Shown: piece after piece, positions 2,970 through 60,637 of the stretch
How the letters are laid out: each line of letters begins with the position of its first letter
How positions within the stretch are numbered: the first letter of the stretch is position 1
From: Dyella silvae
GTDB taxonomy: Bacteria > Pseudomonadota > Gammaproteobacteria > Xanthomonadales > Rhodanobacteraceae
Direction: 5' to 3'
Assembly (NCBI RefSeq): GCF_026421305.1
Contig: NZ_JAPJBQ010000006.1
Location: 186,001 to 250,000, forward strand
Length of the DNA stretch: 64,000 nucleotides
Made by a program: the position numbers and the translations under genes
The notes under the pieces: model-generated
What the model was told of the DNA's origin: nothing
The model's input: only the letters and a program-made list of their open reading frames with translations
Database searches by the model: none

Positions 2970-3146
2970 GCGCGGTCTTGATGGGAGGTCGGGCCAAGCC
3001 TAACGCGAAAACGGCACCGTCACATGAGGGCCCCTACCTATGCCACTTGCAGGCCCCGGACCAGCGTGGAAGCATGCCGCGGCCCCCAACCCATGCACAC
3101 TCTGTGCTTGCCGCCGCAACTCGATCGATAACGAGGAATGGCCGCT

Positions 3147-3629
3147 GTGACCACCGCCCGCATTGTATTGAAACAAGTGGCAGACCCCACGCTTTGCGCC
3201 ACGGCCCGTGAACTGTTTCTTGAATATGCCGAGATGATCGGCACGGATCTCGAGTACCAGGGATTCTCCGCTGAACTGCATGCGCTACCCGGACCCTACA
3301 AGCCACCCTTCGGCGCGCTGCTCGTTGCCCTTATCGACGAGGAGGTGGCGGGTTGCGTTGCCATGCGGCCGCTCGATGACCATGCAGCCGAGATGAAACG
3401 CCTGTATGTCCGCCCTGCCTATCGCAGCTTCGGCCTGGGCCAGCGGCTTGTTGAGTCGGTGATTGAGGCGTCCCGTGCGGCGGGATACCGGGAATTGCGA
3501 CTGGACACGCTGGCAAGCATGTCCGCGGCACAAGGGCTCTATCAACGGCTGGGTTTTGTTGAAATCCCGCCGTACAACACGCGGCATTTACCCGGTACGC
3601 GCTTTTATTCCCTACCGCTAGCGGCCTGA
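3147..3629 (+). CDS. GNAT family N-acetyltransferase
   Basis: About 160 residues with a GNAT fold. Motif A, which binds the acetyl-CoA pyrophosphate, is visible as RLYVRPAYRSFGLGQRLVE, followed by the typical AxGLYQRLGF element of motif B (SAAQGLYQRLGF). The acceptor is unknown. An ATG at 3138 directly abuts a GAGGA sequence (3133-3137), whereas the in-frame GTG at 3147 has it at 9 bases, so the GTG is the more likely start. It begins a short plus-strand run with the reductase at 3665. Confidence 0.88.
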   Translation: MTTARIVLKQVADPTLCATARELFLEYAEMIGTDLEYQGFSAELHALPGPYKPPFGALLVALIDEEVAGCVAMRPLDDHAAEMKRLYVRPAYRSFGLGQRLVESVIEASRAAGYRELRLDTLASMSAAQGLYQRLGFVEIPPYNTRHLPGTRFYSLPLAA

Positions 3630-5882: not shown

Positions 5883-7166
5883 TCAGCCGCGATGCAGGGC
5901 GCGATGAGCGATATCACGACGGCAGAAGGCGCCCTCGTAGTGAATCTTGCCGACCGCGGCATAGGCATGCTCACGGGCGGCGGTAATGTCCTTGCCGAGC
6001 GCGCATACGGTGAGTACGCGACCGCCGGCGGTCACGACATCACCTTGCGCATCGAGCTGGGTGCCTGCGTGGAACACCTTCACGTCGGGTCCGAAATCGC
6101 CATCCAGGCCGGTGATGACATCACCGTTGCGCACCTTGCCCGGATAACCGCCAGCCGCCATCACCACGCCCAGTGACGGACGCGCATCCCACTGCACGTG
6201 GGTGTGATGCAATTCGCCGTCGAGCGCTGCTTCGATGAGATCAACCAGATCGGACTTCAGGCGCAGCATGATGGGCTGCGTTTCCGGATCGCCAAAGCGC
6301 ACGTTGAACTCGATGACCTTGGGGGCGCCGCTCTTGTCGATCATCAGGCCCGCGTAGAGGAAACCAATGAAGGGCGCGCCCTCCATGGCCATGCCATGCA
6401 GGGTAGGTTCGATCACTTCCTTGAGAATGCGCTTCTCGACCTCGGGCGTAACGACCGGCGCGGGCGAATAAGCGCCCATGCCACCGGTGTTGGGACCCAT
6501 GTCACCTTCGTCGCGGCGCTTGTGGTCCTGGCTGCTCGCCATGGGCAGCGCGTGCTGGCCATCGCTCATCACGATGTAGCTGGCTTCTTCGCCGTCGAGG
6601 AATTCTTCGATGACGACACGGGCCGATGCATCGCCAAACTGGTGCGCACCCAACATGTCATGCAGCGCCTGTTCGGCATCCGCCAGCGTCAACGCCACTA
6701 CCACGCCCTTGCCCGCCGCCAGGCCGTCCGCCTTGATGACGATGGGCGCGCCGTGTTTGCGCACATAGGCCAGCGCAGGGTTGAGCTCGGTGAACACCGC
6801 GTAGCGCGCGGTGGGGATGTTGTGGCGCTGCAGGAAGTCCTTGGCAAACGCCTTGGAGCCTTCCAACTGCGCGGCGATGGCGCGCGGACCGAAGCAGCGC
6901 AGGCCGGCGGCACGGAACTTGTCGACCAGGCCGGCTACCAGCGGCACTTCGGGTCCCACCACGGTGAGTTCGATCTTCTCGTCCCTGGCCAGCTTCAGCA
7001 GGCCGTCCAGATCGGTAACCGCCACATTGGCGTTGCGCAGGCCTTTCTCGCGCGCCGTGCCGGCGTTGCCGGGAGCCACGATCACTTCGCTGACGCGGGG
7101 GGATTGCTTGAGCTTCCACGCCAGCGCGTGTTCACGCCCGCCGCTGCCAATGACCAGGACTTTCAT
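5883..7166 (-). CDS. purD: Phosphoribosylamine--glycine ligase
   Basis: A 427-residue protein, the usual length of PurD, which joins phosphoribosylamine and glycine with ATP in the second step of de novo purine synthesis. It opens with MKVLVIGSGGREHALAWKL, the glycine-rich N-terminal motif of the family, and continues through the ATP-grasp domain (IKADGLAAGKGVVVA, EEASYIVMSDG, HKRRDEGDMGPNTGGMGAY, EFNVRFGDPETQ). The start at 7166 is chosen over an upstream frame extension because it places the canonical MKVLVIG at the N-terminus. purH, its frequent neighbour, is not in the window; purD is a single-gene unit here. Confidence 0.97.
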   Translation of the reverse strand: MKVLVIGSGGREHALAWKLKQSPRVSEVIVAPGNAGTAREKGLRNANVAVTDLDGLLKLARDEKIELTVVGPEVPLVAGLVDKFRAAGLRCFGPRAIAAQLEGSKAFAKDFLQRHNIPTARYAVFTELNPALAYVRKHGAPIVIKADGLAAGKGVVVALTLADAEQALHDMLGAHQFGDASARVVIEEFLDGEEASYIVMSDGQHALPMASSQDHKRRDEGDMGPNTGGMGAYSPAPVVTPEVEKRILKEVIEPTLHGMAMEGAPFIGFLYAGLMIDKSGAPKVIEFNVRFGDPETQPIMLRLKSDLVDLIEAALDGELHHTHVQWDARPSLGVVMAAGGYPGKVRNGDVITGLDGDFGPDVKVFHAGTQLDAQGDVVTAGGRVLTVCALGKDITAAREHAYAAVGKIHYEGAFCRRDIAHRALHRG

Positions 7167-10311: not shown

Positions 10312-12819
10312 TCAGGTGGCGGCCTTGGCCGGGGCCTTCTTGGCGGTCGCTTTCTTCGTCGCGGTCTTGGCCGTAGCTTTCTTCGCAGCGGCCTTCTTTG
10401 CCGGCGCCTTCTTGGCCGCGGTCTTTTTCACTGCGGCTTTCTTGGTGGCGGTCTTGGCGGTCGCCTTCTTGGCCGCCGGGGCTTTCTTGGCCGCTGCCTT
10501 CTTGAACGCACCGCGACCCTTCTTGACCGGAGCCGCCGCGAGCAGTTCGATGCACTGCGCCTCGGTCAGGTCTTTCGGCTCCTGGTCCTTGGGAATGCGC
10601 GCGTTCTTTTCGCCATCGGTGATGTACGGACCGAAGCGGCCGTTAAGCACCTGCACGCCGTTGCCGAAATCCTTGATGGTGCGGTTGGCAATCATCTCCA
10701 GCTTTTCCTGCACGATCTGCAGGGCACGCGGCAGCTCGATGGTGTACGGATCGTCTTCCGCCTTGAGCGAGGCATAGGTGCTGCCCTGCTTCACGAACGG
10801 ACCGAAGCGGCCGACACCCACCGAGACTTCGTCACCGTTCTCCGTCTGGCCGAGCTTGCGCGGCAGCTTGAACAGCTCCAGCGCCTCTTCCAGCGTGATG
10901 GTGTGCATGCTCTGGCCAGGGCGCAGGCTGGCGAACTGCAGCTTTTCGTCCGTGTCCTTGTCGCCGATCTGCGCATACGGCCCGTAGCGGCCGAGACGCA
11001 CCGATATGGGCTTGCCGGTTTTCGGATCGCTGCCCAGCTCGCGCGCGCCGGTGGCTTCGCTGCGGTCGACCGATTCGGTCTTCTCGTCCACCTGCTGCTT
11101 GAACGGCTGCCAGAAGCGCTCCATCAGCGGTACCCACGCTTCCTCGCCACGGCTCACCGCGTCGAGCTCGTCTTCGAGCTTGGCGGTGAAGTCGTAGTCG
11201 ACGTAGCGGGTGAAGTGCGAGGTGAGGAATTTACTCACCGCACGGCCCACGTCGGTGGGCTTGAAGCGGCGGCTGTCGAGGAACACGTACTCGCGGTTCA
11301 GCAGCACCTGGATGATGCTGGCGTAGGTCGACGGACGGCCGATGCCATATTCCTCCAGCGTCTTCACCAGACTCGCTTCGGAATAGCGCGGCGGCGGTTC
11401 GGTGAAGTGCTGGTCGGCCAGAATGTCTTGCAACGCCACGCGCTCGCCCACGTCCAGCTTGGGCAGGCGACGGCCTTCGTCTTCGTCTTCCGCCGTCTTC
11501 TGGTCGCGGCCTTCTTCGTACACGGCAAGGAAGCCCGGATCGACCACGGTGGTACCGGTAGAGCGGAACGACGCGTCACCGCCATGCACGTGCGGCACGG
11601 CGAAGTCCACCGACACGGTGTTGAGCGTGGCGTGGATCATCTGGCAGGCGACCGTGCGCTTCCAGATCAACTCGTACAGCTTGCGCTGCTCGTCGTTGAG
11701 GAACGATGCCACCTCGCGCGGCGAGCGCATGGCCGAGGTGGGACGAATCGCTTCGTGCGCTTCCTGGGCGTTCTTGGACTTGGATTTGTAGACCTGTGCG
11801 TGATCCGGCAGCGCCTTGGCGCCGAAATCGCGCGTGATGAGCTGGCGCAGCTCACCCACGGCGTCCTCGGAAAGGGCGACCGAGTCGGTACGCATGTAGG
11901 TAATCAGACCGACGTTGCCTTCGCTGCCGAGCGACACGCCTTCGTACAGGCCCTGGGCCACCTTCATCGTGCGGCTGGTGGAGAAGCCGAGCTTGCGCGC
12001 GGCTTCCTGTTGCAGCGTGGACGTGGTGAAGGGCGGCGCCGGACGGCGCTTGCGCTCCTTGCTGCCGACCTCGCTGACCGTGAGGTGGCCACGCGCCGCC
12101 TGGCTCAGGGCGTGACGGGCCGCCAGCGCGTCGTGCTCGTTGGTGAGGTCGAACTGCTCGAACTTCTTGCCGTTGAGCTTGGTGAGCCGGGCGGTGAAGT
12201 CACCCTCGGGATGGCGCAGCGAGGCCTCGATGGTCCAGTACTCGCGTGCCTTGAAGGCTTCGATCTCTTCCTCGCGCTCCACGATCATGCGCAGCGCCGG
12301 CGACTGCACGCGGCCGGCGGAAAGGCCGCGCTGCACCTTGCGCCACAGCACCGGCGACAGGTTGAAGCCCACCAGGTAATCCAGCGCACGACGCGCCTGC
12401 TGCGCATCGACCATGTCCAGCGAGAGCTGGCGCGGACTGGCTACGGCGGCCTTGATCGCCTTCGGGGTGATCTCGGAGAACACCACGCGATGGAGCTGCT
12501 TGCCCTTGGTGAGCCCGCGCTCTTTCAGGATCTCGCTGATATGCCAGGAGATCGCCTCACCTTCGCGATCCAAGTCGGTCGCGAGATAGATGTCGTCGGC
12601 CACCTTGGCCGCCTTGGCGATGGCATCGACGTGCTTCTCGTTGCGATCGATCACCTCGTAGGCCATGGCAAAGCCGTTATCGGGATCCACCGCCCCTTCC
12701 TTCGGCTTCAGGTCACGCACGTGACCGTAGGAGGCCAGGACCTGGAAATCCTTGCCGAGGTATTTGTTGATCGTCTTGGCCTTGGCCGGTGACTCGACGA
12801 TAAGCAGGTTTTTTGCCAT
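10312..12819 (-). CDS. topA: DNA topoisomerase I
   Basis: An 835-residue type IA topoisomerase, which relaxes negative supercoils. The TOPRIM domain opens with LIVESPAKAKTINKYLG and holds the metal-binding DLDREGEA; the catalytic tyrosine lies in LITYMRTDS. Several C-terminal zinc-finger-like topo_C repeats follow but with few cysteines (RLGRYGPYAQIGD, VGRFGPFVKQG, NGRFGPYITDG), matching the Xanthomonadales/Legionella-type protein rather than E. coli. The last 70 residues (766-835) are almost only Lys, Ala, Thr and Pro in AAKK-type repeats, resembling a histone H1 tail, likely to bind DNA non-specifically. It overlaps no neighbour: tsaC begins at the next base, dprA ends 113 bp upstream. Confidence 0.97.
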   Translation of the reverse strand: MAKNLLIVESPAKAKTINKYLGKDFQVLASYGHVRDLKPKEGAVDPDNGFAMAYEVIDRNEKHVDAIAKAAKVADDIYLATDLDREGEAISWHISEILKERGLTKGKQLHRVVFSEITPKAIKAAVASPRQLSLDMVDAQQARRALDYLVGFNLSPVLWRKVQRGLSAGRVQSPALRMIVEREEEIEAFKAREYWTIEASLRHPEGDFTARLTKLNGKKFEQFDLTNEHDALAARHALSQAARGHLTVSEVGSKERKRRPAPPFTTSTLQQEAARKLGFSTSRTMKVAQGLYEGVSLGSEGNVGLITYMRTDSVALSEDAVGELRQLITRDFGAKALPDHAQVYKSKSKNAQEAHEAIRPTSAMRSPREVASFLNDEQRKLYELIWKRTVACQMIHATLNTVSVDFAVPHVHGGDASFRSTGTTVVDPGFLAVYEEGRDQKTAEDEDEGRRLPKLDVGERVALQDILADQHFTEPPPRYSEASLVKTLEEYGIGRPSTYASIIQVLLNREYVFLDSRRFKPTDVGRAVSKFLTSHFTRYVDYDFTAKLEDELDAVSRGEEAWVPLMERFWQPFKQQVDEKTESVDRSEATGARELGSDPKTGKPISVRLGRYGPYAQIGDKDTDEKLQFASLRPGQSMHTITLEEALELFKLPRKLGQTENGDEVSVGVGRFGPFVKQGSTYASLKAEDDPYTIELPRALQIVQEKLEMIANRTIKDFGNGVQVLNGRFGPYITDGEKNARIPKDQEPKDLTEAQCIELLAAAPVKKGRGAFKKAAAKKAPAAKKATAKTATKKAAVKKTAAKKAPAKKAAAKKATAKTATKKATAKKAPAKAAT

Positions 12820-47414: not shown

Positions 47415-48056
47415 TCAGCGCAACGCCGCCGCTTCCCGCGCCAATTGCTCGATGCCGGCCCAATCGCCGCTATGTAGTTTGTCGGCAGGGGTAAGCCACG
47501 AGCCGCCCACGCACACCACGTTTGGCAATGCCAGGAAATCCGGCGCTGTCGCAAGAGTGATGCCGCCGGTGGGGCAGAACTTCATCTGTGGCAGCGGACT
47601 GGCCCAGGCGCCGATCAGCTTGTGGCCACCGGCCGGCACGGCAGGGAAGAACTTCACGTGGTGATAGCCGCGCTCCAGCAGCGCCATGACTTCGCTCGCC
47701 GTAGCCGTGCCCGGCAATAGCGGCAGCTCGCTGTCGTCAGCCGCATCCAGCAACCCGGGCGATACGCCCGGCGATACCGCAAAACGCGCACCGGCTTTGT
47801 AGGCTGCGCGCAGATCCTTCGCGCTGAGTACGGTGCCGACACCCACCACGGCGCCTTCCACTTCCTCAGCAATGGCCTTGATGGCATCGAGCGCCGCAGG
47901 CGTGCGCAGCGTCACTTCGATGGCCGGTGTACCACCAGCCACCAAAGCGCGCGCCATCGGCACGGCGGCCCGTGCGTCTTCGATAATCACCACCGGCACC
48001 ACGGGCGCCAGGCGCAGGGTGGATTCAATCAGCTTCTGCTTCTGTTCGATGCTCAT
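47415..48056 (-). CDS. eda: KDPG aldolase (2-dehydro-3-deoxy-phosphogluconate aldolase)
   Basis: A 213-residue aldolase that splits KDPG to pyruvate and glyceraldehyde-3-phosphate, the last Entner-Doudoroff step. The Schiff-base lysine lies in [15 protein letters not shown], the catalytic Glu in [32 protein letters not shown] and [19 protein letters not shown] complete the TIM-barrel phosphate sites. It is the last gene of zwf-pgl-edd-eda, 34 bp after edd. Confidence 0.97.
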
Positions 48057-48090: not shown

Positions 48091-49908
<1,818 letters not shown>

Positions 49909-49974
49909 GTTCGAACTCCGATAATCAGGCGGCACGCAACCATGCGCGCCATTCATGCAGGTGACGCCAGCGAC

Positions 49975-50688
49975 TCACGGGCACCAGTAGACGGCGACGG
50001 GCACTCGCGACTGGGTAAGCACGGCGCGCACAGGAAAGCCTGCCGCTTCGCCCAGGCCAAGGCGCGCATCCGCCAGCAACTGACGCTTCGCTTCGCCCTC
50101 GATGTGAAGGAACAACGCACGCGTGTCGAGCAGCGCGGGCAGGGTGAAGGTAATGCGCGGCTCGCCCGCGCCTTCCGCGCGCATGGGCAATACGCGTGCG
50201 GCGTTGGTCAGATCCAACGCCTCCGGCAGGCGGTCGCCACCGGGGAAGAACGACGCGGTGTGGCCGTCGTTGCCCATACCAAGCACCACCGCATCGAACG
50301 GCAGCGGCAAGGTGGCCATGCGTGCACGCACCACAGCCAGCCCGGCTTCGGGCGTCGGCGCATCCGCGTACAGAGGTACGAACTGCGCGGTGGTAGCTGC
50401 GTGCTTCAACAGCAACGCCTTCACCATGCCCGCATTGGAACGCTCATGGCTTTCAGGCACCCAGCGTTCGTCCACCAGCGTGACCTGCACTTTCGACCAA
50501 TCGAGCATCTGGCGCGATAGCCGCTCAAAGAAATGACGCGGCGTACTGCCACCGGACACGGCCAGCAGCGCCGTATTCCGTTGATCGATACTTTCGCGCA
50601 AACGCTCCGCTACCCGCTCCGCCAGCGCTGCGGCGAGCGCCTGGCAATCGCTAAAGCTATGCGTGGTGACGTTCAGAATCTCAGGCAT
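49975..50688 (-). CDS. pgl: 6-phosphogluconolactonase
   Basis: A 237-residue DevB/Pgl-type lactonase that opens 6-phosphogluconolactone. Motifs: LLAVSGGSTPRHFFERLS at the N-terminus, TLVDERWVPESHERSNAGMV and VVLGMGNDGHTASFFPGGD, the latter holding the phosphate-binding and catalytic residues. It sits between zwf and edd on the same strand, with a 120-bp gap upstream that shows nothing else. Confidence 0.95.
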   Translation of the reverse strand: MPEILNVTTHSFSDCQALAAALAERVAERLRESIDQRNTALLAVSGGSTPRHFFERLSRQMLDWSKVQVTLVDERWVPESHERSNAGMVKALLLKHAATTAQFVPLYADAPTPEAGLAVVRARMATLPLPFDAVVLGMGNDGHTASFFPGGDRLPEALDLTNAARVLPMRAEGAGEPRITFTLPALLDTRALFLHIEGEAKRQLLADARLGLGEAAGFPVRAVLTQSRVPVAVYWCP

Positions 50689-50807: not shown

Positions 50808-52274
50808 TTACTCACTGTCCTCGTACCAGTTGCGGCCGTCGCGCTCGATCAGCGCCACCGCGGCGCTCGGCCCCCAGGTACCCGACGTGTACTGGCGCGG
50901 TGTTTCGCCACTATCCGCCCAGGCAGCCAGAATGGGGTCGGCCCAGCGCCAGGCCGCTTCCACTTCGTCGCGGCGCATGAACAGCGTGGGATTGCCGCGC
51001 ACCACATCCAGCAGCAGACGCTCGTAAGCGTCGGGCTGCTGTACGCCAAAGGCTTCGGCAAAACTCATGTCGAGCGAGACGTAGCGCAGGCGCAAGCCAC
51101 CGGGGCCCGGATGCTTGATGGTGACCCACAGCTTGATGTTCTCGTCCGGCTGCAGTCGCAACACCAGACGATTCTGCGCAAGCACGCCCGCCGACGGATC
51201 GAAAATGGAGTGCGGCACTTCCTTGAACACCACCACGATCTCGGACACACGCTCCGGCAACCGCTTGCCCGTGCGTAGATAGAACGGCACGCCGGCCCAA
51301 CGCCAGTTGGCGATCTCGGCCTTCAGCGCCGTAAACGTTTCGGTGTTGGACTTGTGGTCCTTCAGCTCATCCAGATAGCCCGGCACGCCCTGGCCATCCG
51401 CTGCGCCCGCGCGATACTGGCCGCGCACTGTGAGCTGCGCCGCGTTGCCGCCATCAATCGGCTTGAGCGAGCGCAGCACCTTGAGCTTCTCATCGCGCAC
51501 CGCATCGGGCGCCAGCGACGAGGGTGGCTCCATCGCCACCATGCACAGCAGCTGCAGAATATGGTTCTGCACCATGTCGCGCAGCGCGCCGGCATGGTCG
51601 TAGTACGCCACGCGCTGGCCCACGCCCAGCGTTTCGGCCACGGTGATCTGCACGTGATCGATGTGTTCGGCATTCCACAGCGGCTCGAACAGCGCATTGC
51701 CAAAGCGCAATGCCAACAGGTTCTGCACCGTTTCCTTGCCAAGGTAGTGGTCGATGCGGAAGGTCTGCGATTCGTCGAATACGCGGCCCACAGCGTCATT
51801 GATCTGATTGGCGCTCGCCAGATTGCGGCCAATCGGCTTCTCCAGCACCACGCGCGCCTCGCCCTTGTTGAGGCCGTAGCTGCCAAGGCGGTTACAGATA
51901 TCAACAAACAAGTCTGGCGAGGTGGAGAGGTAGAACACGCGCACGTGATTGGGCTGCTCGCCCATCAGTGTCGCAAACGCGTCCCAACCGTCGTCTTTGC
52001 GCGCATCGAGCGAGCGATAACTCACCTGGGGCAAAAACGTATCCACCTTGGAGGCGTCTGCACCGCCTTCCAGCAACGCCTTGCGTATCGTGGTGCGGTA
52101 GCCGTCGTCATCGAGGCCTTCGCGCGCGACGCCGATGATGCGGCTGGATCCGGGGATCTGCCCGTCCACAAAGCGGTGATACAGCGCGGGCAGCAGTTTG
52201 CGTACGGCGAGGTCGCCGGTTCCACCAAAAATCACCAGGTCAAAAGGGTCGACCGGCTGGGGAGAAGCAGTCAC
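50808..52274 (-). CDS. zwf: Glucose-6-phosphate 1-dehydrogenase
   Basis: A 488-residue enzyme of the usual length. The Rossmann start is [20 protein letters not shown], the active-site motif is [14 protein letters not shown], and [20 protein letters not shown] and [20 protein letters not shown] are conserved. It supplies 6-phosphogluconate and NADPH and starts zwf-pgl-edd-eda. The GTG at 52274 is set as start because GAGGTGA lies five bases upstream and the protein then begins [12 protein letters not shown]; the frame stays open far upstream but through the regulatory region at 52311-52485. Confidence 0.95.
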
Positions 52275-52310
52275 TTCAGTCACCTCAAGGCGATGCGGGG
52301 AGCGGCACGT

Positions 52311-52485
52311 GGCATGCATACCACGTGCAGTGCTCGCTGATCGTACCAGTGTCATACCAGACAACACCAGTTGTTCATTAAGTCCTCGCAAGCGAGGCGC
52401 AAGGCCAAAGTACGACCAAAAACTGGTACCGCCAAAAAGCCGCGCCACAACGGCCCATACAGCAAGTGGTATGCCTACTGGTATC
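52311..52485. promoter_or_regulatory. Operator array upstream of zwf (copy A)
   Basis: Seven TGGTAT/ACCAG-type half-sites are visible, upstream of zwf. Leftward ones: ATACCA (52318-52323), ACCAGT (52345-52350), ATACCAG (52354-52360), ACCAGTT (52366-52372). Rightward ones: ACTGGTA (52422-52428), TGGTAT (52467-52472), TGGTATC (52479-52485). The same array lies in front of the GntR/UTRA gene with spacing that differs by at most one base. The start GGCATGCATACCACGTG is identical in both. ACTGGT/ACCAGT dyads are typical for HutC-type GntR regulators. Confidence 0.75.
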
Positions 52486-53187
52486 TTTTTGGAGTGCGTG
52501 GCGACGTGTGAGGGAGCCGCCCCACGCGGGCCTCCGCCCCCGGCTGGCGCATCCTGTGCCTGGGCCGGCGCCGCTCGCAATGGCGATACCAGACCACCAC
52601 GGCAATATGCCGCGAACGTCGTATCCATCACGTGCAACCCGGCACCGGCAGGCCCGAGTCCACCTGCGGTCGACGTGCCGAGTCATGGCGACACTCAGCC
52701 ACTGCCCGAACGATGCACCAGTGATCTCGAGTGCAACCGATGCATGCGCTCGACACGCCGTGTCATCCCATGATCGCAACCACGAAACCGACAACGGTCG
52801 GTGATGCGCACGTCTTCGTGTCCTACTCACTACGCAGCGCAAGTTTGAGATCTTTCTGATAGTCCCCTCTCTATGCGCCACCTACCATCCCTGTAATCAA
52901 CTTCACGTCAGAAGTTGCGGTGCAAAGCCCTGGAAGTAGCAGTTCGTGGCGAAGCTCCACATGGTGCACATCGTGCGCGCGGCCCCGCCACGCAGCCAGC
53001 AGGCATCGAAGCCAAGCCTCACTCACACCACACAACGCGATGGACTTGAAGGGTCACGGTTATCCGCATGGCCAGCATGCTCGCGCGCCAGGTTGCCACC
53101 GACATCGGCTTTGTTTCGGTCGACTTCGACTGAAGCGAAGACATTCGCCGGAGGGCGGATGTTTGCAAACCAACCTGTATTCAAGGA
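52486..53187. other. 702-bp gene-free leader between the zwf operator and the fimbrial operon
   Basis: No open frame here looks like a gene: the frames that cross it are short, Arg/His/Pro-rich and overlap on both strands. The last 100 bases lead to the pilin start. I see no clear -35/-10 pair for the fimbrial operon, no invertible repeat that would suggest phase switching and no tRNA. A long regulated leader is plausible. Confidence 0.5.
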
Positions 53188-53196
53188 ATGTCTACT

Positions 53197-53772
53197 ATGA
53201 AGCACATCAAGCTTGCCTCCGCGATCGCCTTTGTCATGGGCGCTGCCGTCTCCGCTTCGTCGTTCGCTGCCCCGGCAGGCAGCGGCGGCACCATCACCTT
53301 CACCGGCCAGATCAACGACACCACCTGTACCGTGACTGGCGGCACCGGCACCAACGAGGGTACCGGCAACTTCATCGTTGCGCTGGACCCGGCAGACGCC
53401 AACCAGCTGGCCACCGTCGGCGCCACCGCCAACCAGAAGCAGTTCGACGTAATTTTCAGTGGTCCGAACTGCGCGAGCGGCAAGACCGCCTATATGTCCT
53501 ACATGCTCTCCAGCCCGCAGATCGACGCCGGCACCGGCGCCCTGAAGAACGCGCTGAGCGGCGAAGCCACCAACGTGCAGATCCAGCTGGCTGACAGCAG
53601 CAAGACGGCGATTAACCTGGCCAACCCGGGCCAGAGCTGGTCGACCCTCATTGGTGCCACCACCGCGAACACCGGCAAGCTGTCGTTCTTCGCCCAGTAC
53701 CTGGCCGTCAACGGCCCCGCCACGCCGGGCAAGGTCAGCACGAGCGTCGTGTACTCGGTGGTCTACAACTAA
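53197..53772 (+). CDS. Major fimbrial subunit (pilin)
   Basis: A protein of about 191 residues with a signal peptide (MKHIKLASAIAFVMGAAVSA then SSFAAP). The mature protein shows the pilin fold: TFTGQINDTTCTV with Cys1, a partner in SGPNCASGKT, and a closing YSVVYN beta strand for the chaperone-usher donor-strand scheme. AAGGA at 53183-53187 is nine bases ahead of the ATG at 53197, whereas the ATG at 53188 would touch it. It is the first gene of a full chaperone-usher operon and is followed by a strong hairpin, as expected when the main subunit is needed in excess. Confidence 0.88.
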   Translation: MKHIKLASAIAFVMGAAVSASSFAAPAGSGGTITFTGQINDTTCTVTGGTGTNEGTGNFIVALDPADANQLATVGATANQKQFDVIFSGPNCASGKTAYMSYMLSSPQIDAGTGALKNALSGEATNVQIQLADSSKTAINLANPGQSWSTLIGATTANTGKLSFFAQYLAVNGPATPGKVSTSVVYSVVYN

Positions 53773-53791
53773 TCCGCTTGCGGATCTGTCG

Positions 53792-53820
53792 TGCACCGGC
53801 GGCTTATCGCCGCCGGTGCA
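53792..53820 (+). terminator. Intercistronic hairpin after the major pilin
   Basis: TGCACCGGCGGC (53792-53803) and GCCGCCGGTGCA (53809-53820) form a perfect 12-bp stem around TTATC, 20 bp after the pilin stop and 20 bp before the chaperone. It has no T-run; a partial terminator or a stabiliser of the upstream message would raise pilin relative to the rest. Confidence 0.65.
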
Positions 53821-53840
53821 CTCTTCTCATCAGGTGATGT

Positions 53841-54590
53841 ATGTCCAACGTTTTGCGCTATGCCATGGCAGGCATGCTGGTGATGGCAGGGGTGTTCGCC
53901 GCGCGCAGCGAAGCCAGTGTGGTGATTGGCGGCACCCGTGTCATCTATCCCGCCCGGGAAAAAGAAATCACCGTCAAGCTCACCAATGACAGCAGCCGAC
54001 CGGCGCTTGTGCAGGTGTGGCTCGACGACGGTGATGAGCGATCGACGCCCGACACAGCCAAGGTGCCGTTTACGGTAGCTCCACCCATCTTCCGCATGGA
54101 GCCCGGCAAAGGCCAGGCGGTGCGCGTGATGTACACCAAGGAACCGCTGCCTACGGATAAGGAAACCCTTTTCTGGGTCAACGTGCTGGAGGTTCCGCCC
54201 AAGGCGGACAACAGCGAAGGCCGCAACCTGCTGCAATTTGCCTTTCGCACGCGCATCAAGTTGCTGTTCCGTCCGGCCGGACTGCCGGGTGACGTCACCG
54301 ACGCCCCCGACAAACTGAGCTGGACATGGGTGCCCGGCGAAGACGGCAAGGGTTTCGCACTGCGAGTCACCAATCCCACGCCCTACTACGTGAACTTTGC
54401 CCGCGTGGACGTTCGCGTCGGCGACCGTGACGTGGGTAACCACGGTGGTGGCATGGTCGCACCGGGTGGTACCTCGACGTTTCCGCTCAAGGACGTCACG
54501 ACGCGCCCCTCAGGCGAGGTGAAAGCTTCGTTCGGGGTGATCACCGACTACGGCGCCATCAAGGATCTGGTCAAGCCGCTGTCGCCCTGA
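53841..54590 (+). CDS. Fimbrial periplasmic chaperone (PapD-like)
   Basis: A 249-residue periplasmic chaperone with a signal peptide (LRYAMAGMLVMAGVFAARS). The first Ig domain begins VVIGGTRVIYPAREKEITVK and contains the G1 strand region PPIFRMEPGKGQAVRVMY; the family F/W-x-N element is ETLFWVNVLEVPPK. The second domain covers residues about 150-249. It binds each pilin by donating a strand and delivers it to the usher. Lies 68 bp after the pilin. Confidence 0.92.
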   Translation: MSNVLRYAMAGMLVMAGVFAARSEASVVIGGTRVIYPAREKEITVKLTNDSSRPALVQVWLDDGDERSTPDTAKVPFTVAPPIFRMEPGKGQAVRVMYTKEPLPTDKETLFWVNVLEVPPKADNSEGRNLLQFAFRTRIKLLFRPAGLPGDVTDAPDKLSWTWVPGEDGKGFALRVTNPTPYYVNFARVDVRVGDRDVGNHGGGMVAPGGTSTFPLKDVTTRPSGEVKASFGVITDYGAIKDLVKPLSP

Positions 54591-54675
54591 ACGCCTCGAT
54601 CTTTGTTCGTATCTGCAGGTGCCTCGCGACGCGTGAGGCGCGGGCTCTACGTTGCCTCGTTTACAGGAGTTGTGC

Positions 54676-57528
54676 ATGGGCCGCCGTGTCATCGGATCAC
54701 AAACAAGCCGTGCTGCGTGGACCATGCTGCGCCTGGCCGTGTTGCCGATGACGATACTCGGCGCTCTGGCGCAGAACACCCATGCGGCTGCCGCAGCGGC
54801 ACCCGCATCCCCTATAGGAGGTGCGGCGAGCTTTGATACGGATTTCTTTCCGACCGGCATGGCGCCCAAGATGGATATTTCCCGCTTTGAAAAGAGCGGT
54901 TATGTCGCGCCGGGCACCTATCGCGGCGATGTGCTGTTCAACGGTGAATGGCGCGCACGTACCGACATCGTCTTTCAATCCGTTCCCGGACAGGACGATT
55001 CCCTGCCGTGCTTCGACGCAGACGCATTGGCGCGCTATGGCGTCGACTGGAAGAAAGTCAGGGCGGATACACAGCGCCCGGCGCTCAAGGCCGTGCCTGC
55101 TGGCCCGTTCTGCGGTCCGTTGAGTGACTATATTCCGGACGCCAGCTCCAGCTTCGATCCCAGTACCCAAGAGTTGTCGCTGTCGGTGCCGCAGTTCTAT
55201 ACGCGACAGGCCGCGCGTGGCTATGTCGATCCGTCGCAATGGGATGCTGGCATTACCGCTGCCACGTTGTCCTATAACGCCAACGTTTACCGCTCCAACC
55301 ATAGCGGCAGCGGACTGACCTCCGGGTACCTTGGCATCAACGCGTCGCTCAATGTCGGTTCGTGGCACCTGACGCAGCTCGGCTCGCTGAACTGGGCAAG
55401 TCGCGGTGGCACGCATTACCAGAACACAGCCACTTATCTGCAGCACGACATTCCTTCGCTGCAAGCCCAGCTTGCCATTGGCGATACGTATACGACGGGT
55501 GCGCTGTTCGACAGCGTGCGCTTGCGCGGCGTCAACCTGATCAGCGATGACCGCATGCTTCCGCAATCCATGCGAGGGTATGCGCCGGTTATTCACGGCG
55601 TGGCGGAAACCAACGCCAAAGTCACCATTCGCCAGCGCGGTTACATCATTTACGAAACCAGCGTCGCGCCGGGCCCGTTCTCCATCAACGATTTGTATCC
55701 CACCGGTTATGGCGGCGACCTCAATGTCGATATCACGGAAGCTGACGGCCGCATCAAAAGTTTTTCCGTGCCGTTTTCCGCCGTGCCGCAGCTGCTGCGT
55801 GCAGGCCAAAGCCAATGGAACATCGTTGCCGGCAAGATTCACCAGCAGAACCTGAAGGACGAGCCGAACTTGATTCAGGCCACTTATCAGCGTGGCCTCA
55901 ACAACCGTATCACCGGGTATACCGGCGTGGTGATCGCCAGTGGCTACGTGTCGGCACTGGCCGGTGCCGCGCTCAATACCAACATTGGCGCTTTCTCTGC
56001 CGACGTTACGCTGGCACGCAACTCCCTGCCCGGCCAGCCTTCCACCGATGGCGCCAGCTTCCGCCTTGGCTACAACAAGAACATCATCGAGACCGGCACC
56101 AATTTTGCGGTGGCGGCGTATCGCTATTCGACACCGGGCTTCGTTGGCCTGAGCGATGCCGTGGTGCTTCGCGATGCCGCTGCACGCGGCTACAGCAACG
56201 CCCTCACGCAGCGCCAGCGCAGCCGTCTGGACCTGAGCATCAACCAGACACTGGGTGACCGCTACGGCTACCTCTACGTTGCCGGTTCCGTGCGCGACTT
56301 TTGGAACCGCTCGGGACGTCAGGTCGACTTCTCCGGCGGCTACAGCAACCGGTGGCGTTCGATCAGCTACAACCTCTCAGTGCAGCGCTCGCGCGACAGC
56401 GTGCAGGGCTTCACCATGTCGAACCTGTCGAACCGTATCCCGGGTGCGCCGGATGGTTACATCGTGCCTGTCATCCCAACGCGCCGGGACACCAGCGTGT
56501 TCTTCAGCGTTTCGATGCCGCTGGGCCAGACGCTACGCGCACCGTCCTTCAACGCGATGTACAACCACTCCGAGGCGAGTGGCAGCTCGACCATGGCGTC
56601 GCTGAGCGGTACGGCCGGTGCGGACAACCGCTTCGCCTATGGCGCGACCATGAGCCATGCGAATGGCAGCAACACCTACAGCCTCAACGGCCAGTACAAC
56701 GGCAGCAAGGGCAATGTAGCCGCGGGCTACAGCAAGGGCGGCGGCTACCAGCAGTGGAATGCGGGCCTCACCGGCGGCATGGTCGTGCATGCCGGCGGAG
56801 TGACGCTGTCGCCGTCGCTGGGCGATACGGTGGGAGTGGTCGACGCACCCGATGCCGCCGGTGCGAGCGTCTCCAGCGCGCAGGGCGCGGTGGTGGATTC
56901 ACGCGGCTACGCCGTGGTCCCGTACCTGGCGCCGTACGAACTCAATACTGTCGCGCTCGACCCCAAGGGCACCGCCGCAGGTGTGGAGCTGAAGGAAACC
57001 ACGCAGAGCGTGGCGCCACGTGCGCACTCGGTCGTTCGCCTGCGCTACGAAACATCGAATGGTCGCGCCTTCATGGTGGAAACCATGCTGCCGGACGGAC
57101 GTCCCGTGCCCTTCGGTGCGGATGTCTTCGACGAGCAAGGCAACAAGATTGGCGTCGCCGGTCAGGCGAGCCGCCTGGTCATCGGCAACATGCCCGAGTC
57201 GGGCGTGCTCACCGTGCGCTGGAGCGACGATCCCACCGACAGTTGCCGCATTGCGGTGAATGTTCCCCCATTGGACAAGGCGCATCGCGGCGATCTGGAG
57301 TGGGCACAGGTCGCCTGCAAGGGCACGTCCGCGAACACTGGCCAAGCCACCAGCACTACCCATCCGCCCAACGAACCGTCAGTTGGCGGTCCATCGGGCA
57401 TCCAGGCCGATGAACAGCGCGCGTTGCCTGCATCGCGCGAATCTGACCGTTTTTCCCCTTCGATGAAAACATCCTCGGGTCACGCGACGGCAGGCACGCA
57501 AGAGAACTCAGGTCGTCTTTATGAATGA
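54676..57528 (+). CDS. Outer-membrane fimbrial usher
   Basis: A 950-residue usher. Order of parts: signal peptide (LRLAVLPMTILGALA), N-terminal periplasmic domain (FDTDFFPTGMAPKMDISRFE with CFDADALARYGVDW), a beta-barrel with internal plug, and two C-terminal domains ending DSCRIAVNVPPL and EWAQVACKG with a cysteine pair. Unusually, about 67 residues continue past the last cysteine, rich in Ser, Thr, Gly and Pro. CAGGAG precedes the ATG at 54676 by eight bases. It exports subunits and anchors the fimbria. Its 3' end overlaps the adhesin gene by 8 bases. Confidence 0.93.
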   Translation: MGRRVIGSQTSRAAWTMLRLAVLPMTILGALAQNTHAAAAAAPASPIGGAASFDTDFFPTGMAPKMDISRFEKSGYVAPGTYRGDVLFNGEWRARTDIVFQSVPGQDDSLPCFDADALARYGVDWKKVRADTQRPALKAVPAGPFCGPLSDYIPDASSSFDPSTQELSLSVPQFYTRQAARGYVDPSQWDAGITAATLSYNANVYRSNHSGSGLTSGYLGINASLNVGSWHLTQLGSLNWASRGGTHYQNTATYLQHDIPSLQAQLAIGDTYTTGALFDSVRLRGVNLISDDRMLPQSMRGYAPVIHGVAETNAKVTIRQRGYIIYETSVAPGPFSINDLYPTGYGGDLNVDITEADGRIKSFSVPFSAVPQLLRAGQSQWNIVAGKIHQQNLKDEPNLIQATYQRGLNNRITGYTGVVIASGYVSALAGAALNTNIGAFSADVTLARNSLPGQPSTDGASFRLGYNKNIIETGTNFAVAAYRYSTPGFVGLSDAVVLRDAAARGYSNALTQRQRSRLDLSINQTLGDRYGYLYVAGSVRDFWNRSGRQVDFSGGYSNRWRSISYNLSVQRSRDSVQGFTMSNLSNRIPGAPDGYIVPVIPTRRDTSVFFSVSMPLGQTLRAPSFNAMYNHSEASGSSTMASLSGTAGADNRFAYGATMSHANGSNTYSLNGQYNGSKGNVAAGYSKGGGYQQWNAGLTGGMVVHAGGVTLSPSLGDTVGVVDAPDAAGASVSSAQGAVVDSRGYAVVPYLAPYELNTVALDPKGTAAGVELKETTQSVAPRAHSVVRLRYETSNGRAFMVETMLPDGRPVPFGADVFDEQGNKIGVAGQASRLVIGNMPESGVLTVRWSDDPTDSCRIAVNVPPLDKAHRGDLEWAQVACKGTSANTGQATSTTHPPNEPSVGGPSGIQADEQRALPASRESDRFSPSMKTSSGHATAGTQENSGRLYE

Positions 57529-58591
57529 CATCCACAGCACATCATCCGCTCGCCTCCGCTTAGGCATCAGGCTTCTGACGTTGCTGCTCCTGCTGATCTG
57601 TTCGGGCGCGTGCTGGGCAGGACCCATGAATTACTGCAGGCACCTTATGCCGGTAGGCCCGGACGATTTCGCCATCACGTTTCCCGGTACGGTGACCGTG
57701 CAACCCAACGCGCCCGTAGGCCTCGTGCTAGCGACAGCCACTCTGGATACAGGGGCGCGTGGCTACTGGTCATGCGACACGCATGGCGCCCTCGCCCAGA
57801 CGGGGGTGGGTGTCGCAAGCACGAGCGGCACGTATGTCGACACCTACACCATTGGAGGAAACCCCATGGTGGTGTACAGCACCAATGTTCCCGGGGTGGG
57901 GTATGGGCTCTCCTTCACCATGTACAACACCGGCTGTGGTGGCTGGGTGTCCTTCCCGATTAACGTGGTACCCAATGGCTATAGCTGGACCGCCTGCAGG
58001 ACCATGGGCGTGTTCAATATCGGTGTAAAGATCGAGATCAGCCTGGTCAAAACCGGGCCCATCACTGCGGGCCTGCTGGCACCCGGTCCTATCGGAAAAT
58101 CGAACGTTTACGACGATGGCGCCGTCCTGACGGATGGTGCCGGCATGTTTCTTTTCCATCTGGCCGGATCGGTGCAGATCAACGATGGATCCGGCACCTG
58201 CTCGTTTACCGTACCCGACACCGACCTGGGCACGTATACGGCCGCGTCGTTCACAGGAAGCACGACCAAGCCCTGGTCGGACGCGATCAAAGTCAAGATC
58301 GTGAGCTGCTCGCCGGGTATCGACAACATCCACATGAAGTTCCTGGGTACACCGGATGCCAACAATAGCAACTACTTTGCCCCCATCAGCACCTCGGGCA
58401 ATGTCACCGGTATCGCCATCCAGCTTGCGAACTCTTTCATGGCACCGGCGATTCCCGGTGGCACCCTGGACTGGTCGCGGTCCGTGGTGGGCGACAGCTA
58501 TAACCTCCGTGCACGCTTCGTGCAGACGCTAGGCAACGTGACTGCCGGTGTCGTGAAAACGCCGATCACCATCCAGTTCACTTATAACTGA
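57521..58591 (+). CDS. Two-domain fimbrial tip adhesin
   Basis: A 356-residue protein with a signal peptide (RLLTLLLLLICSGACWA). Residues about 30-200 are the putative receptor-binding part with several cysteines (MNYCRHL, GYWSCDTHG, YNTGCGGW, WTACRTM). Residues about 215-356 are a pilin domain (GTCSFTVPDTDLGTYTAASF, VSCSPGIDNIHMKFLGTP, ending GVVKTPITIQFTYN) strikingly like the next gene's product. This layout and position suggest the tip adhesin. The ligand is unknown; I do not recognise the N-terminal domain. It starts within the usher gene (8-bp overlap). Confidence 0.83.
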   Translation: MNDIHSTSSARLRLGIRLLTLLLLLICSGACWAGPMNYCRHLMPVGPDDFAITFPGTVTVQPNAPVGLVLATATLDTGARGYWSCDTHGALAQTGVGVASTSGTYVDTYTIGGNPMVVYSTNVPGVGYGLSFTMYNTGCGGWVSFPINVVPNGYSWTACRTMGVFNIGVKIEISLVKTGPITAGLLAPGPIGKSNVYDDGAVLTDGAGMFLFHLAGSVQINDGSGTCSFTVPDTDLGTYTAASFTGSTTKPWSDAIKVKIVSCSPGIDNIHMKFLGTPDANNSNYFAPISTSGNVTGIAIQLANSFMAPAIPGGTLDWSRSVVGDSYNLRARFVQTLGNVTAGVVKTPITIQFTYN

Positions 58592-58601
58592 GCATCATCC
58601 G

Positions 58602-59117
58602 ATGAAACGGAAATCGTTCTATGGCCTGCTGACCTCGATGCTGCTTGTTGCTGCATCGCCAGGCCATGCGCAGTCAGTGACCTTCAACCTTACGGGCAAC
58701 ATCACCCAGGGCACGTGCAACTTCACGATTCCCGACGGCGACCTTGGCACTCATCCAGTCTCGTGGTTTACCGGCAGCCGCGTAACCGCCTGGTCCAATC
58801 CCATTGTCATCAAGGCGGTAAGCTGCTCGCCTGATATTCAGAACATCCGCATGACATTCATTGGTACGCCGGATACCAGCAACGGCAGCTACTTTGCGCC
58901 TGTAAGCACGTCGGGCAATGTCACGGGTGTGGCCATCGAACTCGGCCAAGCCGGCCCGCTCTTAACCGCCGGGATCAACCCAGGTAGTTCGCTGGACTGG
59001 CCACTTGGCACACTTGGAAACTCGTACAGCATCCATGCCCGCTTTACTCAGACCAAGCCCAGCGTGACGCCAGGCGTGGTGAAAACTCCTATCACCGTGC
59101 AGTTCACCTACTACTGA
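58602..59117 (+). CDS. Minor fimbrial subunit
   Basis: A 171-residue pilin with a signal peptide (FYGLLTSMLLVAASPGHAQ). The mature chain runs TFNLTGNITQGTCNFTIPDG to GVVKTPITVQFTYY and has the two typical cysteines (GTCNF and VSCSP). It is close in sequence to the C-terminal half of the preceding adhesin, with shared blocks YFAPVSTSGNVTGVAIEL and TPGVVKTPITVQFTYY, so the two probably arose by a domain duplication. It likely joins the adhesin to the shaft. 10 bp after the adhesin. Confidence 0.88.
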   Translation: MKRKSFYGLLTSMLLVAASPGHAQSVTFNLTGNITQGTCNFTIPDGDLGTHPVSWFTGSRVTAWSNPIVIKAVSCSPDIQNIRMTFIGTPDTSNGSYFAPVSTSGNVTGVAIELGQAGPLLTAGINPGSSLDWPLGTLGNSYSIHARFTQTKPSVTPGVVKTPITVQFTYY

Positions 59118-59141
59118 TAGCCATCAGGAGACGTGCATCCC

Positions 59142-59663
59142 ATGAAACGCCGCGGCTTACCGCTGTTTGCGCTGCTTGCGTTTACTGTCATAGGTGGCGG
59201 TGCGCATGCACAGTCAACGACATTCAACGTGTCAGGCACCATTTCGCCCAGCACATGCCAATGGTCCGTCGCTTCCGATGCAGATCGTACGGTGGCGCTG
59301 GACCCGATCCAGGCGTCCGCGCTGCCGGCGAGTGGCGCGACAGGATTCAAGGCATTCAGCCTCACCCTGGACCAATGCGATCCAGGTTTGAGCACCGCAA
59401 CGTTTTCATTCAGCGGCACCCCCGATTCACGCGACCCGCTGCGCTACAAGAACTCCGGCACGGCATCCGGCGTTGCGGTCGAACTGCAATCGACCGACGG
59501 CCTCACCATCGGTGCCAATGGCGCCAACAGCACGCGCACCACGGCGATCAGTGCGGGTACGACCTCACTTCCCTTGCGCGCTGCCTACTGGAGAGTGAGT
59601 GGCGCCAGCGTTAGCGCCGGCACGGTGAAGTCGGTGGCCACGGTATCCATCAGTTACAACTGA
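59142..59663 (+). CDS. Minor fimbrial subunit
   Basis: A 173-residue pilin with a signal peptide (LPLFALLAFTVIGGGAHAQ). STTFNVSGTISPSTCQWSVA and LTLDQCDPGLSTATFSFSGT give the cysteine pair and the closing SVATVSISYN strand. It resembles the other minor pilin less than the adhesin does. CAGGAG upstream favours ATG at 59142 over GTG at 59133. It is the last gene of the operon, followed by the second copy of the operator array at 59701. Confidence 0.87.
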   Translation: MKRRGLPLFALLAFTVIGGGAHAQSTTFNVSGTISPSTCQWSVASDADRTVALDPIQASALPASGATGFKAFSLTLDQCDPGLSTATFSFSGTPDSRDPLRYKNSGTASGVAVELQSTDGLTIGANGANSTRTTAISAGTTSLPLRAAYWRVSGASVSAGTVKSVATVSISYN

Positions 59664-59700
59664 TGGCCGCCCGGCCCTGTCGACCGCCATGCCTGCCAAT

Positions 59701-59876
59701 GGCATGCATACCACGTGAGGGTTTTGGTGGGCGAACCAGTCTCATACCAGAGCACACCAGTTTTCCGCTGATCCCGCCATACGCGGCTTCAGCTTAGGAA
59801 CTAGCCCGCGAAACTGGTAACACCAGATATCGGCGGCCGTGCAACCAATTGCCAAACTGGTATGGTCATTGGTATC
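59701..59876. promoter_or_regulatory. Operator array in front of the GntR/UTRA gene (copy B)
   Basis: Same array as upstream of zwf: ATACCA (59708-59713), ACCAGT (59735-59740), ATACCAG (59744-59750), ACCAGTT (59756-59762), ACTGGTA (59813-59819), TGGTAT (59858-59863), TGGTATC (59870-59876). The offset from copy A is 7390 for the left part and 7391 for the right part. Between sites the two copies are largely unrelated. It ends nine bases before the regulator start codon, so the gene is very probably autoregulated. An extra ACCAG (59822-59826) forms a CTGGT/ACCAG dyad only in this copy. Confidence 0.8.
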
Positions 59877-59884
59877 GTTCTGGC

Positions 59885-60637
59885 ATGGAAACCGCCCTCG
59901 TCAACGAATACCGCCGCCTTAGCCGCGACCCCGCCACCAGCCAGCCGCTGGCCTATCTGCGCTTGCGCCGGGCCATTCGCAACGTGGTGGAGCACCGTGA
60001 CATCGAGCCAGGGCAGGCGTTGCCGAGCGAACGCGATCTGTCGCGCCTGTTGCAGCTGTCGCGCGTGACAGTACGCAAGGCCATTGCCGGCCTGGTGGAA
60101 GAGGGCCTGCTCAACCAGCGTCATGGCGCCGGTACGTTTGTGGCCGAGCGCATCATCAAGCCTATGTCGCGCCTCACCAGCTTCACGGAAGACTTGCGCG
60201 CACGCGGCCTGAATCCGCGTTCGGAGTTCTCCGAGCGCATCGTCGGCGAAGTGACGCCGGAAGAATCCATGGCGCTCAACCTCTCGCCCGGCGTGCTGGT
60301 GGCACGCCTTCATCGCGTGCGTTATGCCAAGGAAGAGCCGCTCGCCATCGAGCGCAGCGTGGTTCCCGCCAGCATCCTGCCGGACCCCACCATCGTGCAC
60401 GACTCGCTGTATCAGGTGCTCGAAACGCTCGGCGCTCGCCCTCGCCGCGCACTGCAGCGCCTGCGTGCTGTTTCGCTCGGCGCACAACAAGCGCGCCTGC
60501 TGCACGTGCCTGCCGGCAGCGCTGGTCTGAACATCGAACGCCGCAGCTTTCTCGACGACGGCCGCGTGGTGGAGTTCACTACCTCCTGGTATCGCGGCGA
60601 CATCTACGACTTCGTGGCCGAGCTGCAAACCGATTGA
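59885..60637 (+). CDS. GntR family regulator, HutC/UTRA type, likely control of Entner-Doudoroff genes
   Basis: A 250-residue GntR protein. The winged helix is PLAYLRLRRAIRNVVEHRDI with LPSERDLSRLLQLSRVTVRK and GLLNQRHGAGTFVAE. The UTRA ligand domain starts about residue 85 (MSRLTSFTEDLRARGLNPRS, LNLSPGVLVARLHRVRYAKE, ERSVVPASILPDP) and ends WYRGDIYDFVAELQTD. HutC-subfamily proteins bind sugar phosphates or amino-acid metabolites. The duplicate operator arrays tie it to zwf-pgl-edd-eda; a ligand such as a sugar phosphate is inferred. ATG at 59885 is set by the family N-terminus; the upstream extension would cover the operator. Confidence 0.88.
   Translation: METALVNEYRRLSRDPATSQPLAYLRLRRAIRNVVEHRDIEPGQALPSERDLSRLLQLSRVTVRKAIAGLVEEGLLNQRHGAGTFVAERIIKPMSRLTSFTEDLRARGLNPRSEFSERIVGEVTPEESMALNLSPGVLVARLHRVRYAKEEPLAIERSVVPASILPDPTIVHDSLYQVLETLGARPRRALQRLRAVSLGAQQARLLHVPAGSAGLNIERRSFLDDGRVVEFTTSWYRGDIYDFVAELQTD

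Follow-up and report, generated by a model that had tools for sequence, protein, structure and literature searches.

Two copies of an ancestral zwf-gntR control region in Dyella silvae point to a probable NagQ-related regulator of the Entner-Doudoroff genes

We analyzed a 64,000-nucleotide stretch of the Dyella silvae genome (the window), in which two arrays of TGGTAT/ACCAG half-sites are found, array 1 in front of zwf, encoding glucose-6-phosphate dehydrogenase, and array 2 in front of a gene for a GntR/UTRA (HutC-type) regulator, hereafter gntR. The two arrays are homologous and descend from a single control region, which in related genomes lies between the divergent zwf and gntR genes. Their conserved bases have decayed in a complementary way, the spacing of the half-sites is constant and the operator occurs together with the regulator across the family. 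We consider it probable that the protein is an autoregulated, local, NagQ-related regulator of zwf-pgl-edd-eda, and that the arrays are two copies of one ancestral control region of a divergent gene pair.

The 17-mer GGCATGCATACCACGTG is present as exact copies at positions 52311 and 59701. When up to three mismatches were allowed, we found three matches in the window, the third being its own opposite strand, compared to 0.32 expected from shuffled sequences. All seven half-sites (7/7) have the same order, orientation and spacing in both arrays; their cores, given by the first base of ACCA or TGGT, are offset by 7390 for four sites (52320/59710, 52345/59735, 52356/59746 and 52366/59756) and by 7391 for three (52424/59815, 52467/59858 and 52479/59870). 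We scanned both strands of the window with a seven-site template made of the array 1 spacings, with 1 bp of slack on the last three sites. A score of 7/7 was reached at exactly two places, the two arrays, and the next best place scored 3/7; in 20 simulated 64-kb sequences, the best score was 2 (16 times) or 3 (4 times). These results confirm a preliminary description of the window, made from its letters, which had reported the shared 17-base start and the seven matching half-sites, and the genes that it had placed behind the arrays were identified by domain matches (zwf, pgl, edd, eda and GntR plus UTRA, Table 1). The same description called the bases between the sites unrelated, which holds for the spacers proper, with an identity of 0.39 between array 1 and array 2 (congener pairs are all higher, 0.42-0.91), but not for the left block of 63 nt, which is 79% identical. 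Its comparison with dyad-type sites has to be abandoned: at both promoters the half-sites are mainly direct repeats of the TGGTA type, 10-12 bp apart, like those of NagQ and not like the dyads of NagR and DasR. Five bases separate ATACCAG from ACCAGT in the array. A 22-nt near-palindrome, with GTGG and CCAC eight nucleotides apart, includes the 17-mer of array 1; it is absent as such in 2 of the 18 aligned congeners (L019 and L021). At this position L021 carries a different inverted repeat. An mRNA hairpin in this part of the presumed zwf leader was considered and found unconvincing, the RNAfold z-scores ranging from -2.5 to +0.3 in congeners.

Searching for the locus in relatives, we found 139 encoding stretches and kept 80 named loci (L048-L127), which span Dyella, Rhodanobacter, Frateuria, Fulvimonas, Luteibacter and unplaced metagenome-assembled genomes. 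In all 80 loci kept, zwf and the GntR/UTRA gene were divergent neighbours, without a fimbrial cluster between them, and two arrays were seen only in the window's genome. A second set of relatives (L007-L045), which overlaps the first and is not independent of it, showed divergent zwf and gntR genes in 33 of 38 loci; the other five hold 47-55% identical homologues without an adjoining zwf, and in the four of them that were scanned (L041, L042, L043 and L045) the homologue lies directly before nagB-II and nagA. In the 18 aligned congeners, a single array fills the intergenic space between zwf and gntR, and this single region is matched by array 1 on its zwf side and by array 2 on its gntR side. 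Since each array aligns to the relatives' one region, the resemblance of the two arrays reflects common origin, followed by selection.

Decay of the arrays was assessed on columns conserved in at least 85% of the 18 congeners and again at 90%. On the zwf side, array 1 had lost 2 of 73 conserved columns and array 2 had lost 23; on the gntR side, the losses were 8 of 28 and 1 of 28, respectively, so that the loss is complementary between the arrays (p 2e-5; 9e-5 at 90%). Where a side had been orphaned, 28/29 half-site core columns were retained compared to 42/72 of the other conserved columns (p 8e-5; 2e-4 at 90%), and the sole half-site base lost in array 2 also belongs to the former zwf -10. 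A count of the retained gntR-side conserved columns gave 18/26 in array 1 compared to 25/26 in array 2, and the orphaned half-site cores on this side of array 1 were kept in full (10/10). The zwf -10 context is gone from array 2, where GATCGTACCA of array 1 reads GGGCGAACCA. Gene conversion between the arrays would have levelled the spacers too, yet their identity lies under that of all congener pairs. Across 20 arrays, the intervals between half-sites (25/11/10/58/43/12) each stayed within 1 bp, two arrays lacking the first interval, although the 46-nt central spacer has just 4 columns conserved at 90%. The distance from the last half-site to gntR was 15-16 nt in all 19 arrays that precede this gene. 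The constant spacing and the retained orphan half-sites are in line with cooperative or looped binding and lend it indirect support.

To define how the operator and the regulator are distributed, 197 genomes of the family were searched with a degenerate zwf operator, one mismatch allowed, and with the regulator at E <= 1e-40. The operator gave one match per genome in 104 genomes (0 for the reversed control) and the regulator was present in 144. All 104 operator genomes carried the regulator, whereas 53 genomes had neither, 40 had the regulator alone and none had the operator alone (Fisher p 8e-23). The site lay at most 500 nt upstream of the regulator, in the same orientation, in 100 of the 104; three matches lay on the opposite strand, at the start of the regulator itself, and one, that of the window's genome, was 7,529 nt away. 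At the level of sequence, this favours the link that the preliminary description had drawn from a HutC-type GntR protein to the zwf/Entner-Doudoroff genes and to its own gene. Its appeal to selection as the reason for the match is borne out for the half-sites, whose cores were retained, but common origin also explains the match, and the array that it proposed to look for in relatives does lie between zwf and the regulator in the 18 congeners, as one shared array and not as two. A wider regulon was looked for and rejected: the pattern TGGTA-N5,6-YTGGTA had 5 matches in the window's genome, 3 of them in the arrays, compared to 8 in the reversed control, and thus there is no excess of sites elsewhere in this genome. 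Among 20 genomes of the genus, two further pattern matches recur, TGGTAGGCCTGCTGGTA in 10 and TGGTANAGCGTCTGGTA in 13; they were dismissed as extra sites and read as coding, two examples of each lying in long open frames with 78-80% identity between two genomes.

We then related the half-sites to the promoters. A sigma-70 scan gave a gntR promoter match of 9/12, with TG before the -10, within array 2. The TG-G-TAT of the half-site TGGTAT at 59870 forms an extended -10 with TATCGT (59873-59878), the extended -10 of gntR being TGGTATCGT. For zwf, the presumed extended -10, read by eye, is TGGTACGAT (52340-52348), and it is overlapped by the zwf operator. As the last half-site before each gene is a TG-n extended -10, a protein on the half-sites would cover the -10. 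With 6 nt between the -10 hexamer and the regulator's ATG, the gntR mRNA is probably leaderless; no ribosome-binding site was seen by eye (59873-59887). Transcription is predicted to start at the ATG itself (59885) for gntR and near 52333, on the minus strand, for zwf. The zwf start is probably the GTG at 52274, picked by eye, with an alternative GTG at 52283.

The regulator carries an N-terminal GntR winged helix and a C-terminal UTRA domain, both over the Pfam cut-off, as in the HutC subfamily, and two UTRA proteins are encoded in the window's genome. Its closest solved proteins are NagR/YvoA and DasR. Of the NagR ligand-site residues listed in PMC4333415, 13/15 are identical in the regulator, including the phosphate-holding T90, R133, R135, S165 and Y167, and two differ (I166 to L, A224 to T); the NagR DNA contacts R38, R48 and G69 given there are identical as well. 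With these NagR-like pocket residues, the effector is likely a phosphorylated sugar or sugar acid. Despite this largely identical pocket and DNA-contact set, the sites differ from those of NagR and DasR, since dre sites are near-palindromes with half-sites six nucleotides apart (PMC4333415), whereas the main sites of the array are direct repeats and not of the palindromic dre type.

NagQ, a HutC-type GntR protein of N-acetylglucosamine use in Proteobacteria, has the direct-repeat motif TGGTATT (PMC4494728), and its site is a tandem repeat (PMC5343134). Like NagQ, the regulator belongs to the HutC family and has TGGTA direct repeats at its presumed promoters, those of zwf and gntR. The nag-linked homologues (47-55% identity, same gene order) carry TGGTA or TGGTT repeats at their own starts, and one database protein of the family (P0093) is labelled as a putative regulator of N-acetylglucosamine utilization. 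Unlike NagQ, the regulator adjoins its presumed target zwf-pgl-edd-eda and not nag genes; in the window's genome, nagB-nagA is located on a different contig, and the ~450 nt covered upstream of nagB contain no TGGT direct repeat with array spacing. In a protein tree with long outgroup branches, zwf-linked and nag-linked proteins stand on opposite sides of a branch with a support of 94/95, which is not full. Our reading is that a NagQ-like regulator would serve zwf in the window's genome. The TGGTAT half-site is also very similar to the GGTATA repeat of NanR of E. coli, a GntR protein of the FadR subfamily, several dimers of which bind tandem (GGTATA)3 cooperatively, longer spacers weakening the binding (PMC8012715). 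However, NanR is of another GntR subfamily and has another effector, and its three repeats are packed tightly into a single cluster, whereas the array has two opposed clusters of half-sites and a central site. In many gammaproteobacteria, zwf-edd-eda is controlled by HexR of the RpiR family (PMC5343134, PMC5507952), with the same target genes as presumed here but an unrelated protein. No match to PF01418 (RpiR-type HTH_6, HexR-like) was obtained in the window's genome, while the control genomes were positive in 8/14 cases. In the portion of the open-licence literature searched, no GntR/HutC regulator adjoining zwf is named for Rhodanobacteraceae.

From these observations, we infer binding by the regulator, repression, cooperativity and an effector. 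Several dimers of the regulator would occupy the tandem TGGTAT half-sites and assemble cooperatively into a phase-locked complex over the extended -10 elements of both the zwf and the gntR promoters. This would keep zwf and the regulator's own gene repressed; a phosphorylated sugar or sugar acid from the pathway would lift the repression by releasing the regulator. The fimbrial cluster would have come between zwf and gntR, the control region being duplicated or a second copy being imported. In each copy, the promoter of the adjoining gene and the half-sites of both clusters would have been retained, while the context of the other promoter was lost. More tentatively, a NagQ-related HutC regulator may have taken over the zwf/Entner-Doudoroff operon in Rhodanobacteraceae, with a complex joining the two opposed clusters across ~58 bp; the survival of half-sites at a decayed promoter would then mean that each single promoter still depends on the distal cluster.

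Several results weigh against this proposal. The sigma-70 scan gave no zwf promoter at array 1. Among the 144 genomes bearing the regulator, 40 were without a match to the operator pattern; four of these were read (L037-L040) and have TACCAC in place of TACCAG, and three close named relatives among them (L060-L062) have variant flanks. Beyond the genus, there is no general retention of the third, central and palindrome sites, and the full array is thus not required everywhere. Finally, the gaps between neighbouring genes with which the constant spacing was compared (18-24, 118-135 and 34-186 nt, varying by 6 to 152 nt) are a rough control, none of them being a matched spacer.

A serious possibility for the origin of array 2, beside duplication in place, is import: a different Dyella lineage would have donated array 2, gntR and the fimbrial cluster together, the incoming gntR taking the place of the native gene, which would make the arrays xenologues. 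The gntR tree places the window's genome with one clade (99/95, and 98/94 in a second tree), a grouping which zwf rejects (AU p 6e-4 and 1e-4), and the spacers of the two arrays are less alike than those of any congener pair. However, edd does not reject the gntR grouping (p 0.115), the rejection by zwf is removed when G018 is added (p 0.06 and 0.10), the support of gntR is just 92/92 in a smaller named set and no donor with an array-fimbriae-array order was found. A gntR remnant between array 1 and the fimbrial genes of the window was looked for: tblastn detected none at E 1 and blastn gave no convincing match. Import is also favoured by genome G005 (L163, G005:C318), in which a homologue of the window's fimbrial cluster (usher 59%) has gntR 3'-end fragments on its upstream side. 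These fragments, at ~3058-3211 and ~6340-6431, match G005's own intact gene over 134 nt (96%) and 84 nt (80%), and their place near a fimbrial cluster hints at repeated rearrangement. Such fragments were also considered as a general mark of integration, but in the 20 genomes of the genus, extra gntR 3'-end fragments amount to the two in G005 and a short one in G011, with none elsewhere. It is highly improbable that the fimbrial cluster travelled on a mobile element of which the arrays are the ends or the target-site repeats: they do flank the 7.4-kb insertion as direct repeats, but congeners have the single array between zwf and gntR without fimbrial genes there, and the half-sites were retained while the spacers were not. 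Equally improbable is a separate origin followed by convergence under selection, for which the strongly different spacers could be cited, as the alignment of each copy to the single array of relatives runs over its length and takes in the columns outside the sites on that copy's own side.

Alternatives to the proposed function were judged less likely than import. The regulator might activate zwf instead of repressing it, or do both at two promoters, which we regard as unlikely. Three zwf half-sites reach upstream of the presumed -10 and there is no recognisable -35, as in some activator-dependent promoters, but a half-site overlaps each presumed -10, an arrangement that usually blocks polymerase, and repression is the mode of action of the best-known HutC relatives (NagR, PMC4333415). 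Slightly less likely still is that the half-sites belong to another DNA-binding protein, for which the adjoining GntR gene is merely one target. Being of another type than the direct repeats, the 22-nt near-palindrome might be the site of a second protein; on the other side, the use of TGGTATT direct repeats by the HutC-type NagQ (PMC4494728), the repeats at the starts of the nag-linked homologues and the side-by-side co-occurrence of operator and regulator (no operator-only genome) argue for the regulator itself.

The features of the two arrays and of the surrounding genes are presented in Table 1. We presume from gene order and gaps that zwf-pgl-edd-eda form an operon. Two 154-nt stretches of adjacent fimbrial genes (58272-58425 and 58789-58942) share 74% identity, a sign that part of the fimbrial cluster was duplicated internally. 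The four Dyella loci compared (L048, L049, L053 and L059) differ in the genes that follow the regulator, which suggests a variable stretch. In Dyella flava (L105), the intact gene is closely followed by a partial second regulator-like frame (10596-10973), 51% identical to residues 124-249.

Table 1. Features of the two half-site arrays and of the neighbouring genes in the window.
Feature	Position	Strand	Basis or remark
eda, KDPG aldolase	47415..48056	-	NCBIfam eda, 243.5 bits; end of presumed zwf-pgl-edd-eda operon
edd, phosphogluconate dehydratase	48091..49956	-	NCBIfam TIGR01196, 984 bits
pgl, 6-phosphogluconolactonase	49975..50688	-	NCBIfam TIGR01198, 181 bits
zwf, glucose-6-phosphate dehydrogenase	50808..52274	-	NCBIfam TIGR00871, 585.7 bits
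Array 1, near-palindrome CACGTGGCATGCATACCACGTG with first left-pointing half-site	52306..52327		Presumed zwf leader; aligned in 18 congeners
Array 1, zwf operator, three direct half-sites (TACCA 52344, 52355; CACCA 52365)	52339..52372	-	30/31 columns conserved in >=90% of congeners retained
Array 1, central half-site (TGGTA 52424)	52420..52433	+	Half-site match, congener alignment
Array 1, orphaned gntR-side pair (TGGTAT 52467, 52479)	52467..52484	+	Promoter context decayed
Chaperone-usher fimbrial cluster, between zwf and regulator	53188..59663	+	Pfam Fimbrial, PapD, Usher, MrkD-like
Array 2, 17-mer with first left-pointing half-site	59701..59717		Outer left arm of palindrome lost
Array 2, orphaned zwf-side block	59729..59762	-	Half-sites retained; 24/31 conserved columns compared to 30/31 in array 1
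Array 2, central half-site (TGGTA 59815)	59811..59825	+	Half-site match, congener alignment
Array 2, gntR promoter/operator (-35 TTGCCA 59849-59854; half-sites TGGTAT 59858, 59870)	59849..59878	+	Sigma-70 scan
gntR, GntR/UTRA (HutC-type) regulator, 250 aa	59885..60637	+	Pfam GntR 53 bits, UTRA 121 bits

Taken together, the split array would represent a natural separation experiment, and one of the few cases where a bidirectional control region shared by two genes has been copied, with its work divided between the copies. Comparison of the two copies alone would separate promoter bases from predicted regulator-binding bases. If the proposed regulation is true, the NagQ-related protein would be a candidate controller of entry into the Entner-Doudoroff pathway in a genome, that of the window, where a HexR-type domain was not found.

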